A stretch of 46,950 bases of DNA from the NCBI GenBank assembly GCA_025964615.1, contig JAOPYM010000570.1:1-46950 (forward strand). The letters are read 5' to 3'. This stretch comes from Actinomycetes bacterium. Its GTDB lineage: Bacteria; Actinomycetota; Actinomycetes; Streptosporangiales; Streptosporangiaceae. Within the stretch, counting starts at the first letter, position 1, and the number at the start of each line of letters is the position of its first letter. The notes under the pieces are model-generated. The model made no database searches and had not been told where the DNA came from. It was given only the letters and a program-made list of their open reading frames with translations. Both the position numbers and the translations under genes were made by a program. This document shows positions 36,578-46,910 of the stretch, piece after piece.

Positions 36578-37361
36578 CCGGCCTGCTGCGGCGCTGGCTG
36601 CCGTTCGCCGTGCTGGTCGTGGCCTGGGAGGCCACCACCCGCTCCGCGCACAGCGGCTTCTTCCCGCCGCCGTCGGCGATCGTCGCGCGGATGCACACCC
36701 TCTGGTTCTCCGGTCCGGCCGGTCACCTGTTCCTTACCGGAGCGGCGACCGGGAACATCGTGCCGAGCCTGACCCGGCTGGCCGTCGCGCTCGCCGCCTC
36801 TGCGGTCCTCGGGGTGACCGTCGGCCTCGCGGTCGGCAGGTCGGAGCGGGTGTACGCCTATCTCGACCCGGTGCTGCAGTTCTCCCGGGCCATCCCGCCG
36901 CCAACGATCGTCCCCGTCTTCATCGTGCTCTTCACGTTCGGCACGCAGATGCAGCTCGCCTCGATCGTCTTCAGTGCGGTCTGGCCCATCCTGCTCAACA
37001 CCGCCGACGGCGCCCCTCCGTCGATCCGCTGCAGCTCGCCACTGCCGAGGTGTTCCGGCTCTCACCGGCCGACCGGATCCGGCTGATCGTCATTCCGTCC
37101 GCGCTGCCCAAGGTCTTCGCCGGATTCCGCCTCGCCCTGTCCCTTTCGCTCATCCTCATGGTCTTCTCGGAACTGCTCCCCGGCACCGAGAACGGAATCG
37201 GCTTCGAACTGACCGACGCCCAGAGCCGATCCGATCTGCCCACACTGTGGTCTGCGATCATGCTCCTCGGAATCCTCGGTTACCTCTTCAACTCGATACT
37301 CCTGGCAGTGGAACGGCGGGTGCTGGCCTGGCACCACGCGTCCAGAAAGGTAACGGTATGA
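36574..37361 (+). pseudogene. Second ABC permease, frameshifted
   Basis: Reads as a SsuC-type permease (MTGLLRRWLPFAVLVVAWEATTR..SAVWPILLNTADGA) until about 37005-37020, then the frame is lost. The continuation DPLQLATAEVFRLSPADRIRLIVIPSALPKVFAGFR with the EAA loop is found in the next frame, through VERRVLAWHHASRKV. The length from ATG to final stop is 788 bases, one short of the 789 of its sister permease, so a single-base deletion in the CCCCTCCG region explains it. A sequencing error is possible, but neighbouring genes are also broken. Confidence 0.85.
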
Positions 37362-37646
37362 CCACCGTCCGCGACGCGTTCTTCGACTTCTGCCGGCGGT
37401 CCGGCATGACGACCATGTTCGGCAATCCGGGGTCCACCGAATTGAACATGTTGCGCGACTTCCCCGACGACTTCCGCTACATACTGGGCCTTCAGGAGAC
37501 CGTCGCGGTCGCCGCGGCGGCCCGGCCGTACCGTCACCGCGGCTGCGGAGCTGGACGCGGCGCTGACCGCGGCGCTCGACCATGACGGCCCCTATCTACT
37601 CGATGTACGGGTGCGTGCCGACGAGTCCGCGATGTACCGGACATGA
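37358..37646 (+). pseudogene. Thiamine-diphosphate enzyme remnant with large internal deletion
   Basis: Begins as a benzoylformate-decarboxylase/acetolactate-synthase-type TPP enzyme: MTTVRDAFFDFCRRSGMTTMFGNPGSTELNML..YILGLQETVAVAAA, including the catalytic-Glu region. After about 54 residues the next recognisable part, in another frame, is the C-terminal end AELDAALTAALDHDGPYLLDVRVRADESAM before a TGA at 37644. Around 430 residues of a usual 530 are absent. The ATG overlaps the permease stop (ATGA), as expected for an operon gene. Clearly a remnant; the encoded substrate of the lost enzyme, and hence of the importer, may have been an aromatic alpha-keto acid (inference). Confidence 0.85.
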
Positions 37647-37713
37647 GCAGCGCCCGCCCGTCCTGACGTACCGACCACCCCCGGGAGCGATGACATGACG
37701 GCTGGTCGGCATC

Positions 37714-39633: not shown

Positions 39634-39683
39634 GGTCCCTGACCTGTTCGCGGGTCCGCTCGTGGGCGGCGAGCATCCCGTCG

Positions 39684-39835
39684 GTAGCGGACGGCGAGCT
39701 TGTCGTATCTGGTCGCGACCGCCCGGTTGCGCTTGAGCCGGTTGATCGCGCACTCCACGGCGTGGCGTTCGCGGTAGTCGGTGGCGTCGAACTTGGGGGG
39801 CCGACCGCCCCGCGAACCCCGCTTGGGGTCCCAGC
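39684..39835 (-). pseudogene. IS5-family transposase, C-terminal fragment
   Basis: The minus strand reads [47 protein letters not shown]. This is the C-terminal part of an IS5-type DDE transposase including the catalytic Glu (VECAINRLK). Upstream, the frame runs into an inverted-repeat arm at 39843; downstream the expected C-terminal continuation is missing. No intact insertion sequence is left. Confidence 0.75.
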
Positions 39836-39842
39836 AGTCCGG

Positions 39843-40166
39843 TCGAAGGATCCAACGGATTTGCCGCTGACCTGCGGGGAAGTGGGGCACCCAATGGCTG
39901 GTTCTCAGAAACCAGCCATTCCCGGACCAAGATCCACGAGTGGATCGGAAGATCGTTAAGGCCCCAGATCACTCTCAGAACCCGTTCTCGCGCACTTGGT
40001 GGGCGCGACCGGTTCTGAGGAGTGTTTGTGACACGGTCAACGAGGGCTGCGTCGCACTCGTACGCCGCGCCGCAGCAAACCGGACAGAGTGCGTCAAACG
40101 CACCCACGGCGACCAAGAGTTGTCCTCTATTTCCGCAGGTCAGCGCAAATCCGTTGGATCCTTCGA
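39843..40166. repeat. Long inverted repeat, arms of about 34 bp
   Basis: Left arm (39843-39877) TCGAAGGATCCAACGGATTT.. is matched in inverse orientation at 40133-40166 with two or three indels; spacer 255 nt. Within the spacer lie a perfect 11-bp hairpin at 39893-39920 and a 9-bp repeat CTCAGAACC / GGTTCTGAG at 39974-40019. Looks like the remains of a short non-autonomous mobile element or of nested insertions. Confidence 0.7.
39893..39920. repeat. Perfect 11-bp hairpin inside the long inverted repeat
   Basis: AATGGCTGGTT / AACCAGCCATT with loop CTCAGA. Confidence 0.7.
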
Positions 40167-42320: not shown

Positions 42321-43814
42321 TTAGGAGGTCAGCGGGATCAGCAGCTCCTGTTCGAGGGGCGGGTCGAGTTCGTGTTCCCGGCAGCCGGTGGCCGCGTAGG
42401 CGCGGATGCGCAGCTCGTGCGGAGCCACGTCGATGCGGAGGAAGTTCTTGAACAGCGGCGGGCTGCTGGAGTTCGAGGACGGGGAGAACAACCGGTCGTA
42501 CACCCGGCGGACCGGCAGCCGGAGGAACTTCGTGCTCATCCCGCTCCGGCCCGGCACGCCGAGCAGGTAGGCGACCCACCGGGCTCGCAGAGAGGGTGAC
42601 ACCCCCTTGTTGTCCTGGCGGGTGACCGCGATCCCGAGCCGCCGGGACACCGCCGCGGCCGCCTGTTCCGGCGACAGTTCGAGGAACTTCAGGTGCAGCC
42701 GGCGGGCGTACACCCGGCTGTAGAAGGCCAGCGAGTCGCCGCGCAGCGGGTAGCACAGGAAGTCGGCCTCGTCGATGATCGTGGTCTTGGGGATCGTGTG
42801 GGTGGCGTGCATGAACGCCCCGCCCCCGCCGGAGACGACGTACTCGATCCGCCGTCCGGCGGCCGTGGTGATCGGGTAGTGCTGGTAGTTGTGGATGTCA
42901 CCGCCGATCGCGGCCACGTAGTTGTTCGCCGGGTCGGCGACGATGTCGTCCACATACCCGCCGCCCTCGATCACGCCGGGATGGTGCTCGTTGTCGACGT
43001 ACAGCGGCTTGCCGGTGACGAGCAGCTTGGGCTTCGGCCCGGCCGACACCCGGCGCAGCCACTGCCCCTGGTCACGGTCGATGTCGCCCTTGATGCCGGT
43101 GTCGATGCCGATGATCCGCAGCGACGGGGTGTCGATCGCCCAGTAGGGACCGGGCTGGGCCGCCTGCTGCGCGAGCGCCGACCGCAGCTTCGCGCCCTCC
43201 TCGAAAGCCACCTCGTCGATCCGCTGAGGCTTCTTCCACAGCAGCCCGGCCAGCGGGCCGAAGATCCCCTTCCAGGAACCGGCCTGCAGCGGCTCGGACG
43301 CACCGCAGAAGACCCTCATGAACCCGTAGTTCAGGTCGTACCAGTCGTGGTTGCCGGGGATCGCGTAGATCGGCCGCTGGTAGTCCTGGTACGGCCGGAA
43401 GAACTTCTCCGGATAGTCGTCCGCCACCCCGATCGGATAGATCACGTCACTGGCGATCAGCATGAAGTCGGTTCCCTGACCGATCTTCAACGCTCCCGGT
43501 ACGACGGCGTACTGCGGTTCGTCGCCCTGGCCGGTGTCGCCGAGCAGCAGGAACGAGTAGCCGGGATCGTCCCTGGTCATGGTGAACTCGGGGTCGGCAC
43601 CGGCCTCGACGAGCCGTGCGATCCAGCGGCGGCGGACGTCGTCCACCGGATCGCCGAACCAGCGGGCGATCACGTCGTTGCGGGCACCCCACAGGACGGA
43701 GGGGCTGAGCCAGGACAGATGCGGGACACGCGCCGGCATGAGGTTGCGGAAGTCACCGGGTTCCTGGCACTGCCAGCCGGCAGCGGAGGCGGATTCACGC
43801 GAAGAGGTGGGCAC
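42321..43814 (-). CDS. Metallophosphoesterase (calcineurin-like)
   Basis: A 497-aa metallophosphoesterase: FLLLGDTGQGDEPQY (first metal site, Asp without the usual DxH), FMLIASDVIYPIG, IPGNHDWYDLNYGF (GNHD), and GGDIHNYQHYPI (GxxH site). The N-terminal 60 and C-terminal 130 residues are extra regions seen in large actinobacterial members; the C-terminal part is beta-rich. Probably a cytoplasmic phosphodi- or monoesterase of unknown substrate. Start is uncertain: GTG 43814 is used here, ATG 43739 is possible, and the best ribosome site points to ATG 43821, which is in the wrong frame and closes after eight codons. Co-oriented and nearly overlapping with the small gene upstream. Confidence 0.85.
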   Translation of the reverse strand: MPTSSRESASAAGWQCQEPGDFRNLMPARVPHLSWLSPSVLWGARNDVIARWFGDPVDDVRRRWIARLVEAGADPEFTMTRDDPGYSFLLLGDTGQGDEPQYAVVPGALKIGQGTDFMLIASDVIYPIGVADDYPEKFFRPYQDYQRPIYAIPGNHDWYDLNYGFMRVFCGASEPLQAGSWKGIFGPLAGLLWKKPQRIDEVAFEEGAKLRSALAQQAAQPGPYWAIDTPSLRIIGIDTGIKGDIDRDQGQWLRRVSAGPKPKLLVTGKPLYVDNEHHPGVIEGGGYVDDIVADPANNYVAAIGGDIHNYQHYPITTAAGRRIEYVVSGGGGAFMHATHTIPKTTIIDEADFLCYPLRGDSLAFYSRVYARRLHLKFLELSPEQAAAAVSRRLGIAVTRQDNKGVSPSLRARWVAYLLGVPGRSGMSTKFLRLPVRRVYDRLFSPSSNSSSPPLFKNFLRIDVAPHELRIRAYAATGCREHELDPPLEQELLIPLTS

Positions 43815-43817
43815 GCT

Positions 43818-44228
43818 TCATGACGATCCCCCATATCCCACCGGCCGTGCAACGGCTTGGCCCGATTCGGTGCCGTAGTCCGGTGGGAGCGGGAACGGCG
43901 GCGGGGCCTGGGTCCGGTACTCGCCGGTCATTGGGAACGACGGCGGCGGGGGTATGGCGGGTTCCGGCACGGGTACGGCGGCGGGTGCCTCACCCGCATG
44001 GCGGCGGCCCCGCTGCGGCGCGACCTCGATCGCGTGCGCGAGCGTCTCCAGCATGGCCGGGACATCGCCCGCGGCCAGCCGGAAGGTTCCCGTGCACACG
44101 CCGCTGTTCCACATGCTGAGGACCATCACCCCGGCGTCCGGATGCCAGCTGAGGCGGAGCGCGCGGTCTCCTCCCCGGTCGTCGAAGAAGACCTCACCCA
44201 CCCGGGGCAATGGGTTCGCGTCAGACAT
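43818..44228 (-). CDS. Conserved protein of unknown function, upstream partner of the metallophosphoesterase
   Basis: A 136-aa protein. N-terminal half (residues about 10-75) looks like a folded beta domain: VGEVFFDDRGGDRALRLSWHPDAGVMVLSMWNSGVCTGTFRLAAGDVPAMLETL. The C-terminal half is proline-rich and disordered (PVPEPAIPPPPSFP). I recall no named family. Its stop overlaps an ATG (ATGA) and the phosphoesterase starts within a few bases, so the two are co-translated and may work together. ATG 44228 is preferred over 44237. Confidence 0.75.
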   Translation of the reverse strand: MSDANPLPRVGEVFFDDRGGDRALRLSWHPDAGVMVLSMWNSGVCTGTFRLAAGDVPAMLETLAHAIEVAPQRGRRHAGEAPAAVPVPEPAIPPPPSFPMTGEYRTQAPPPFPLPPDYGTESGQAVARPVGYGGSS

Positions 44229-44415
44229 GCCGACCATACTGGCGCTGGTCAGAGCCGTTGTCCAGGCAAGCCCGGTGGATCATACGGCGACCACGGGGGA
44301 CCGGGCAGGTTCCGTCTGCACCTTCGGCAGAGCAGCGCAGTTTTGGCCACTCCGACCCGAACTCCCCTGGTCACCTCGCGATCACCACGGGTCCACCTCT
44401 ACTCGAGGCCTCGGC

Positions 44416-44817
44416 TCAGGGTCCTCCGAACTTCTTGTCCGTGGACACGACCTCTCGGCCCAGCGGCATCAGGGAGATCGGAATCATCTTCAGGTTCGCC
44501 CATCCGAACGGGATCCCAATGATGGAGATGAAGAGCGGAATGCTGGTCACGATGTGACCGATCGCCAGCCACAGGCCTGCGACCAGGAACCAGATCACGT
44601 TGCCCACACACGACGGCGCACCCGCGCCCGGCTTCTCCACGGTCGTTCGCCCGAATGGCCACAGGACGTAGCCGGCGATTCGAAACGAGGCAATACCAAA
44701 TGGTATAGTCACAATCAGGATACAACAGATGACACCGGCTATGGCGTAGCCGATTGCCATCCATATCCCACAGAAGATCAGCCAGAGGGCGTTGAGTACA
44801 AACTCGATCACCTTCAT
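44416..44817 (-). CDS. yccF: YccF-domain inner membrane protein
   Basis: A 133-aa membrane protein with two tandem YccF repeats: ALWLIFCGIWMAIGYAIAGVICCILIVTIPFGIASFRIAGYVLWPFGR and VIWFLVAGLWLAIGHIVTSIPLFISIIGIPFGWANLKMIPISLMPLGR. The repeated IPFGxAxxK/R and PFGR/PLGR turns are diagnostic. Function unknown; small polytopic membrane protein. ATG 44817 with a weak ribosome site. The stretch 44238-44415 before the next gene is non-coding. Confidence 0.93.
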   Translation of the reverse strand: MKVIEFVLNALWLIFCGIWMAIGYAIAGVICCILIVTIPFGIASFRIAGYVLWPFGRTTVEKPGAGAPSCVGNVIWFLVAGLWLAIGHIVTSIPLFISIIGIPFGWANLKMIPISLMPLGREVVSTDKKFGGP

Positions 44818-44904: not shown

Positions 44905-46824
44905 ATGGCCAACCCGAGCGGAGCCGACCGCCGCCCGATCAATCTCGCACCGCACGCTCTTCCGAATCACGCCATCCGGGCGGTGGACTATCTTCGGATC
45001 AGCACGGAGGAACAGAAGCTCGGCTACGGCATCGCCAGTCAGGGCCGGAAGAACGCACGCTACATCGAGCTTCGGGGATGGACCCACGTCGGCACCTACA
45101 AGGACGAAGGTGTGTCCGGCTCCAAGGAGATGGGCGAGCGACTGGACTTCGGCCGCCTCATGGAGAGCGCCCGGCACGGTGAGTTCGATCTCGTCGTGGT
45201 GGAGAGTGGCGATCGCATCGGCCGTGTAGGCCGGGCTTTCTGGCGCTGGGTCTGGGCGCTGGAAGACATCGGGATCTTCGTCGCTATCGTCAACCAGCAC
45301 ATCGACAGCACCACGCCTGAGGGCCGCTCGCAGATGCGGCGCCTGGCGGACTACGCCGAGAACGAGTGGGAGACCATCCGCTCCCGGACCCAAGGCGGAC
45401 TTCAAGAGAAAGCCCAGGAGGAAGGCTCGCCGCACATTGGCGGGAAGCCCCCGTTCGGCTATCGCATCGAGGGCAAAGGAACAAGAGACTCGTACCTCGT
45501 AATCGACGAGAGCGAGGCGAGGATCGTTCGCCGCGTTTACGACATGGCTGTGGCCGGCGGACTCAACCTTCGGCAGATCGCTGTCCGGCTCAACAGCGAG
45601 GGAATCACGTCCCGATCAGGGCGGCCCTGGTCACCGGCCAACCTTCGGGATCGGATCATGTCCCGCGCCGTTCTCGACGGACAACTGATCTTCCGCGGCG
45701 AGCACGCCGCGACCGACGCCGACGGCGAGCCGCTATGGGGTGAGTCAGTCACGATCGTACTCCCCCGGGTCTTAACGGAGGAGGAGGCTGCGACCCTCCG
45801 GCGGAGGATCTCCCCGAGGGCGAAGAACAGCAACCGCAAACAAGCGTGCTACCCGCTCAGTGGACGCTTGATAGGACTCTGCAATGCGAAGTACGTCGGG
45901 ATCAGCCGCGAGTCCGTCGCGTATGGGCGCCGGAGCTACCGCTGCAGTGGCAAAAACGATGCAGTCGTCTGTACCTGCTCATATGTGGATGCCCAGACCG
46001 TGGAGAGCCATGTCTGGTCCGAGGTCGTCAGGCTGCTCGACGGCTTCGGGAGCCTGCAGCAGCTTGCAGCGGAGTCGGCCAGCATGCCTGAGGGCGACCC
46101 GTCAGCGCACGAAGAGCGGATCGCCCGACTCGACCGGCAGATCGAGGATATGAATGCCTCGATAGCTGCCGTACTCGTGGCGTCGGCCGAACAGCGGCAG
46201 TCACCGGACGCCATCGCGGCAGCAACGAAGGTTCTCAACGACGAGCTGCAGCAGCTGGAAGAGATGCGGACCGAGGCCGCGGCCTGGCTGGCGGAGATCG
46301 AGGAGGCCGGCCGTCGCGCCGATGCCATCACAATTCTCGGGGAGATGGCTCGACATCAGCTGGTGGACATGTCGCCCATCGAGCAGGGCCAAGTGTTCGC
46401 TCTGCTCGATGTGAAGGTGTTCATCGAGGGCCCAGTACCTCCACGGCGGCGTGGGGTGGCCTGCACAGTCCGGGACTGGTACCGGTCCGCTGACCTTGAG
46501 GTCCCTGCCAGAGATCTCTCGGACGAGCAGTGGGACCTGATCGCCGCGCTGCTCCCAGAGGGCCGCCGCGGAAGAGCTCGCCGATCAGTGGAAGCCATCT
46601 TCGCCAAGGCGCGCACCGGAGCCGCCTGGTCTGGGCTACGAGATGAGTACGGCTCGACCAGCACGGCTTCGAAGTACTTCACGAAGTGGGTGGCAGACGG
46701 TACTTGGGCGCGGGTCAACGCGGTGCTCTCGGACGTGGAGCGATGCCCGCTCCCCATGCTAGATCTCGTACTCCCGCTGCGAATCGAAGGTCGGCTGGAC
46801 CCACGCGTGACGCTGATCCCGTAA
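44905..46824 (+). CDS. Large serine recombinase with a DUF4096-like C-terminal domain
   Basis: A 639-aa site-specific recombinase. Resolvase catalytic domain (about residues 24-165) with nucleophile Ser33 in VDYLRISTEEQ, and ESGDRIGRVGRAFWRW; recombinase domain (about 185-290, GGKPPFGYRI..NLRQIAVRLNSEG); a zinc ribbon whose first CxxC is reduced to GLCNAKY (four Cys remain: 326, 347, 356, 358); a coiled coil (about 400-480). The last 100 residues read DLSDEQWDLIAALLPEGRRGRARR..ARTGAAWSGLRDEYGSTSTASKYFTKWVADGTWARVNAVL, which matches the N-terminal domain of IS5-type transposases (DUF4096). ATG with AGGAG five bases upstream; the track start at 43954 is a shadow. Could act as an integrase or mobilise an element; no phage genes or attachment site are visible. 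Confidence 0.92.
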   Translation: MANPSGADRRPINLAPHALPNHAIRAVDYLRISTEEQKLGYGIASQGRKNARYIELRGWTHVGTYKDEGVSGSKEMGERLDFGRLMESARHGEFDLVVVESGDRIGRVGRAFWRWVWALEDIGIFVAIVNQHIDSTTPEGRSQMRRLADYAENEWETIRSRTQGGLQEKAQEEGSPHIGGKPPFGYRIEGKGTRDSYLVIDESEARIVRRVYDMAVAGGLNLRQIAVRLNSEGITSRSGRPWSPANLRDRIMSRAVLDGQLIFRGEHAATDADGEPLWGESVTIVLPRVLTEEEAATLRRRISPRAKNSNRKQACYPLSGRLIGLCNAKYVGISRESVAYGRRSYRCSGKNDAVVCTCSYVDAQTVESHVWSEVVRLLDGFGSLQQLAAESASMPEGDPSAHEERIARLDRQIEDMNASIAAVLVASAEQRQSPDAIAAATKVLNDELQQLEEMRTEAAAWLAEIEEAGRRADAITILGEMARHQLVDMSPIEQGQVFALLDVKVFIEGPVPPRRRGVACTVRDWYRSADLEVPARDLSDEQWDLIAALLPEGRRGRARRSVEAIFAKARTGAAWSGLRDEYGSTSTASKYFTKWVADGTWARVNAVLSDVERCPLPMLDLVLPLRIEGRLDPRVTLIP

Positions 46825-46828
46825 AAAG

Positions 46829-46875
46829 GCCGCTGGGGTCACGTCCGACCCCCGTACGGACGTGCCCCCAGCGGC
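46829..46875 (+). terminator. Terminator of the recombinase gene
   Basis: GCCGCTGGGGTCACGTCCG pairs with CGGACGTGCCCCCAGCGGC (18 of 19), 9-nt loop, five A before and TTG after; 5 nt past the stop. Confidence 0.85.
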
Positions 46876-46910
46876 TTGTGGCCGGCATGATCTGCCAGAC
46901 CATTTGGGAA

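Follow-up and report, generated by a model that had tools for sequence, protein, structure and literature searches.

The stretch of DNA analysed here (46,950 nt, hereafter the window) contains an intact open reading frame for a protein of 639 aa (44905-46824, + strand), with a ribosome-binding-like AGGAG just upstream of its start. The protein matched the integrase family phrog_95 (E 2e-84), and a Foldseek search with its structural model returned the Bxb1 and SPbeta integrases (E below 1e-15). It is a large serine recombinase (LSR): the Resolvase domain with its active-site serine, the Recombinase domain, the zinc ribbon and the coiled coil are all present. Ser33 lies in an R-x-S-T motif, of which R31 and S33 are invariant among family members, and recombination of attP with attB by standard serine-recombinase chemistry (Ser33, 2-bp crossover) is predicted from family membership. 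The features of the locus, with the evidence for each in brackets, are as follows.

42321-43814, - strand: metallophosphoesterase gene, host flank (locus comparison)
43818-44237, - strand: small conserved host gene, left chromosomal flank, in the same order as in integrase-less relatives (locus comparison)
44416-44817, - strand: element-type yccF; it and the integrase gene stand head to head (identity to element copies)
44905-46824, + strand: LSR of 639 aa with inserted DUF4096 module (ORF call, Pfam, PHROG match)
44980-45423, + strand: Resolvase catalytic domain, residues 26-173 (Pfam, E 5e-27)
45511-45792, + strand: Recombinase domain, residues 203-296 (Pfam)
45853-46026, + strand: zinc-ribbon domain (Zn_ribbon_recom), residues 317-374, with Cys 326, 347, 356 and 358 (Pfam)
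46099-46368, + strand: coiled-coil helices, residues 399-429 and 434-488 (AlphaFold2 model)
46414-46425, + strand: residues 504-507, equivalent to strand beta13 in the zinc domain of LSRs (AlphaFold2 and LI integrase structure)
46438-46776, + strand: all-helical module inserted between beta13 and beta14, residues 512-624 (alignment and AlphaFold2)
46516-46716, + strand: DUF4096 (PF13340) match, residues 538-604 (Pfam)
46777-46800, + strand: strand corresponding to beta14, residues 625-632, where the usual recombinase end resumes (alignment and AlphaFold2)
46815-46821, + strand: GATCCCG, att half-site remnant at the 3' end of the gene (comparison with mobile relatives)
46816-46888, + strand: terminator-like hairpin at and beyond the stop codon (sequence)

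The DUF4096 match of the window protein (E 6e-18) scored 65.3 bits against a Pfam gathering cut-off of 34.3, and residues 536-610 matched the NCBIfam model for IS5-family transposases (NF033580, E 1e-15). A first-pass annotation, made from the letters alone, had read the protein as a serine recombinase with the N-terminal DUF4096 domain of IS5-type transposases joined to its end. The peptides it quoted lie where it placed them and the fusion is genuine and conserved in relatives, but the domain is not a C-terminal tail: the module sits within the terminal hairpin of the zinc-ribbon domain, between strands beta13 and beta14, and the protein still closes with its usual final strand. No Pfam match to a DDE catalytic domain was found in the window protein, in which DUF4096 is followed by the integrase's own final strand; with DUF4096 but no DDE domain after it, the protein is not an IS5-family transposase.

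The position of the insert is apparent from the alignment, in which a module-less sister (L054) reads LLDVRVTVLDNTDAP-RLRIEGIVP and the window protein reads LLDVKVFIEGPVP-(module, about 105 aa)-LRIEGRLDPR. In four further integrases (L085, L087-L089), which share 42% identity with a module-bearing query outside the module, the same two strands are linked by a loop of ~12 residues and the module is missing. The solved structure of LI integrase shows beta13 and beta14 as a hairpin that closes the zinc domain and enlarges its sheet (PMC3783163); together with the alignment, this places the module in the turn of that hairpin. AlphaFold2 (24 sequences) predicted helices at residues 521-529, 540-547, 555-571, 575-582, 585-598 and 600-607, flanked by the strands 504-507 and 625-632. 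Modelled alone, the module reached a pLDDT of 87 and a pTM of 0.80, whereas the full-length model had a pTM of only 0.38, so that the placement of domains, including the orientation of the module relative to DNA, is uncertain. Across 22 modules W525, P534, D540, W543, K568, W595 and G599 are invariant and R559, R570, W575 and G583 nearly so. The module also matched positions 307-397 of phrog_6657, an uncharacterised phage family of 463 positions; DUF4096 may thus occur in further phage proteins.

Distribution and evolutionary history of the module

The search for the same fusion in other genomes, which the first-pass annotation had proposed, found it in Actinocorallia populi, in Streptomyces-type genomes, in viral contigs and in phages. 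The A. populi protein (L002, genome G411) has the same architecture and shares 67% identity over residues 23-637; four other family members (G556, G483, G401, G478) and the Streptomyces-type genome G194 encode the same protein at about 37-60% identity. DUF4096 scored above the gathering cut-off in all of these as well as in the window, and at E<=0.01 in 22 of the 24 members of set A5. Because the fusion proteins were too diverse to be scanned for with a single profile, three subsets were used. At E<1e-30, 35 of 296 Streptomyces-type genomes matched, most of them across the module, the architecture being conserved in about a tenth of the genomes of this type searched, and the viral contigs yielded many further module-bearing matches. 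More than 80% of the query was covered in 24 annotated phage records, every one from a Streptomyces phage, with phiHau3 and Haizum among them; the homologues are annotated merely as serine integrase or similar. None of the plasmid records reached 80% coverage. Altogether, the module is present in 79 of the 114 sufficiently complete related integrases collected.

Several family members deviate from the common plan. The integrase at L152 1348-3132 has apparently lost the coiled coil (about 110 residues) and retains the module. Three module-bearing proteins (L052, L033, L053) carry ~110 additional residues beyond the final strand, which look winged-helix-like by eye and have no confident Pfam match. 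In L070 (G413:C1:632083-635238) an insertion of ~1.3 kb breaks the integrase near residue 471, with the module on the far side, and at L066 1-345 (G556) a TnpB-like coding end, recognized by eye, abuts the integrase 3' end at the expected position of an att arm.

On a tree of 71 integrases, calculated with the module columns left out, module presence requires two changes, one gain and one loss. The gain maps to the base of the clade containing the phages, where branch support is only moderate (81), so that its exact position is less certain than the count of changes; the loss falls on the L085/L087 branch. This distribution points to a single origin with wide retention. L085 and L087 lack the module yet look intact, so the module has been dispensable at least once. 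Between the window and A. populi, dN was 0.23 and dS 1.0 for the whole protein and 0.29 and 0.94 for the module, that is, dN/dS of about 0.23 and about 0.3, which indicates purifying selection, as estimated by simple counting with synonymous sites near saturation.

The window locus and its mobile relatives

Three Streptomyces-type genomes (G924, G798, G994) encode integrases with 56-58% identity to the window protein, whose 3' ends adjoin the 5' portion of yccF. The remaining 3' portion of that gene is found on a different contig, beside an additional yccF that is complete and divergent (G924:C48:5342-5737, G994:C148:35311-35706, G798:C50:183-578), which could substitute for the interrupted host gene. 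The first-pass annotation had also proposed mapping the attachment sites. Junction comparison in these three elements yielded attP as ACGATCCCG-TT-CGGGATCGT and placed attB inside the yccF codons for IPFGIA; the sites consist of 9-bp inverted arms around a TT centre in the three close relatives and are broken in the window copy. RepSA lies beside the integrase in G924 and G994, and G924 has an FtsK/TraB-like gene as well. The closest mobile relatives are AICE-like elements inserted in yccF; a literature search on yccF as an integration target and on phiHau3 gave nothing relevant. In the integrated Streptomyces-type copies and in A. populi, the last codons and the stop of the integrase come from the host yccF (L191 9459-9489, L192 5409-5439, L193 9327-9363, L065 10080-10089), so the C-terminus of the integrase should differ between the integrated and the circular form.

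In the window's genome, only a remnant of such an element appears to be left. The integrase gene stops 126 bases short of the contig end, and these 126 bases are identical to one end of contig C558, on which dagK and agpS lie; this joins the integrase to dagK and puts host genes on both sides. Integrase-less relatives (G625, G669) have the order agpS-dagK-yccF-phosphoesterase-polA, with or without the small gene, and the A. populi integrase has dagK on one side and yccF on the other. The window yccF is closer to element copies (73-75% identity) than to host copies (about 58-69%) and shares the longer N-terminus of the former, while A. populi has kept a shortened host yccF 5' end beside dagK. 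No phage or conjugation genes were found between the host flanks of the window integrase and yccF. A prophage in the window was rejected on account of the host genes on both sides and the exact join to C558, and the locus is not an AICE, its integrase and yccF being bordered by host genes alone. Of the attachment site just GATCCCG is left, the other half being gone and the outer spacing altered; the element is therefore probably immobile, with neither cargo nor usable att sites left. Integrase and element-type yccF stand head to head in the window and in A. populi but share one direction in the Streptomyces-type elements, so plain deletion of cargo does not fully account for the remnant.

Elsewhere in the window, inspection by eye revealed a C-terminal scrap of an IS5-type transposase in a frame with stops (39650-39850, - strand) and a piece resembling the start of a thiamine-diphosphate decarboxylase (MTTVRDAFFDFCRRSGMTTMFGNPGSTELN; 37360-37650, + strand) whose apparent end lies in another frame; the latter is either a pseudogene or an assembly join.

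Possible roles of the module

Both attP arms of all three elements carry a mirrored GCG[CT]GAT block 25-31 bp from the crossover, which is absent from attB of the same elements. One of these arms lies in coding sequence. Mirror scores were 6, 7 and 6 of 7, and among random 122-mers from the same loci, in the range of 12-45 bp, at least 6 of 7 positions were mirrored in 4% and 7 of 7 in 0.3%; as the three attP sites are related, these chance rates leave the outer motif suggestive only. The published attP half-site of the LI integrase is 25 bp (PMC3783163), hence the block falls just beyond the usual LSR footprint. A scan of other integrase loci for symmetric attP sites with an outer block gave nothing above background near module-bearing integrases.

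We propose that an LSR ancestor in an actinobacterial phage/AICE lineage gained a helical, helix-turn-helix-like DUF4096 domain of ~75 residues, nested in the turn of the last zinc-ribbon beta-hairpin. Catalysis would remain standard serine-recombinase chemistry, with Ser33 and a 2-bp crossover, and the module would serve as an accessory DNA-binding element: on attP half-sites it would extend the contact of each subunit outward, to some 25-31 bp from the crossover, and raise specificity or affinity for attP. In the window's genome, cargo and usable att sites would have been lost, with the integrase and the element-type yccF persisting as a chromosomal remnant. Of this scenario, the sequences themselves show the architecture, where the module is inserted, a single gain followed by broad retention, and the yccF attachment site of the closest mobile relatives. 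For the scenario as a whole, a captured domain acting as accessory attP-binding element with the window copy as remnant, we see about even chances. A more specific reading, that the module reads the additional ~7-bp GCG[CT]GAT on attP and not on attB, and that the two sites are thus partly distinguished by the added domain, is a rather unlikely, tentative suggestion. Matches to HTH_28 and HTH_23, weak, below the Pfam cut-off and in one module only, would fit the predicted DNA-binding domain; the net charge of the modules, which is near neutral (-2 to +4), and the searches against the PDB, in which the module model gave no significant Foldseek match and the module sequence no phmmer match, do not help.

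A serious rival, possible although we would not expect it, is a part in protein-protein interaction or regulation: the module might, for instance, dock a recombination directionality factor or help synapsis, having kept the DUF4096 fold but lost DNA binding. The module projects from the zinc domain, the bearer of the synapsis-controlling coiled coil (PMC3783163), and both its near-neutral charge and its persistence in L152, where the coiled coil itself is apparently gone, are consistent with such a role. On the other hand, W543, R559, K568, R570, W575, W595 and G599, all invariant or nearly so in the 22 modules, fall inside the DUF4096 match, and a mirrored outer motif does exist in attP. It seems improbable that the insertion is functionally neutral and simply tolerated: one clean loss (L085/L087-L089) with no other obvious damage and the divergence of the phage modules below the Pfam cut-off would agree with it, but the module has persisted throughout a deep clade, its core residues are invariant and it is under purifying selection.

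The first-pass annotation had further noticed the loss of one Cys of the first zinc-ribbon pair and suggested that the new domain may have taken over DNA recognition, the module then compensating for a damaged zinc ribbon. The loss itself is confirmed, as only C326 remains of the CxxC pair and position 323 is Ile, and the module does resemble a transposase DNA-binding domain. However, the first Cys is absent from all 63 module-bearing integrases, from 3/3 module-less sisters and from 2/2 secondarily module-less integrases, and present in 21 of 23 distant ones. Since the module-less sisters also lack it, the module is not its replacement, and we rejected the link between the two; the Cys seems to have been lost before the module was gained, and independently of it. 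A downstream CxC, seen in 33/63 module-bearing integrases and 4/5 module-less close relatives, could provide the fourth zinc ligand. The Recombinase and zinc-ribbon domains are kept and still match Pfam, which argues further against a takeover of DNA recognition and makes this idea very improbable. Finally, read-through of the gene into an IS remnant, which the late DUF4096 match and the IS5-like scrap elsewhere in the window might have suggested, can be dismissed: most of the related integrases collected carry the module, contrary to an ending before residue 530, the full-length architecture is conserved in another genus at 67% identity, in Streptomyces-type genomes and in phages, and the usual terminal strand comes after the module.

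For phage integration and for genome-engineering tools, it is a central question how serine integrases discriminate attP from attB and how their specificity changes over evolution. An insertion of apparently single origin in a known hairpin, combined with close relatives that lack it and with mapped att sites, makes the contribution of the added domain directly testable, and the clade may offer integrases with longer recognition sites. The parts are known and the proteins public, but no description of the nested domain was found in the open-access literature searched, in which two papers mention DUF4096, neither of them together with serine integrases.

Comparison with known systems

The Listeria LI/A118 integrase, whose C-terminal domain has been solved, shares with the window protein the Recombinase domain, the zinc ribbon, the coiled coil and the beta13-beta14 hairpin (PMC3783163), but its hairpin has no insertion and all four zinc Cys, the CxxC pair among them, are present. 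LSRs with DUF4368 form a multi-targeting clade (PMC10083194) and likewise have an additional Pfam domain, whose function is not known, as their hallmark; they differ in the domain concerned, and the nearest mobile members of the present clade look site-specific for yccF. IS5-family transposases (NF033580) have DUF4096 in common with the window protein, which in contrast uses serine-recombinase chemistry in place of a DDE domain.

The integrases of the Streptomyces phages Haizum, Tefunt, Hank144 and phiHau3 (Arquatrovirinae) share the domain order of the window protein, nested module included, at 27-29% identity over about 95% of the protein. These are phage-borne, and their modules have diverged, with DUF4096 matches below the cut-off (E 2e-5 in Haizum, 4e-3 in phiHau3). 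The G924 and G994 elements resemble AICEs of the pSAM2 type, as RepSA and an FtsK-type transfer gene flank the G924 integrase and RepSA occurs in G994. The integrase of pSAM2 is a tyrosine integrase, whereas these elements have a serine integrase, are inserted in yccF and carry a spare yccF copy.
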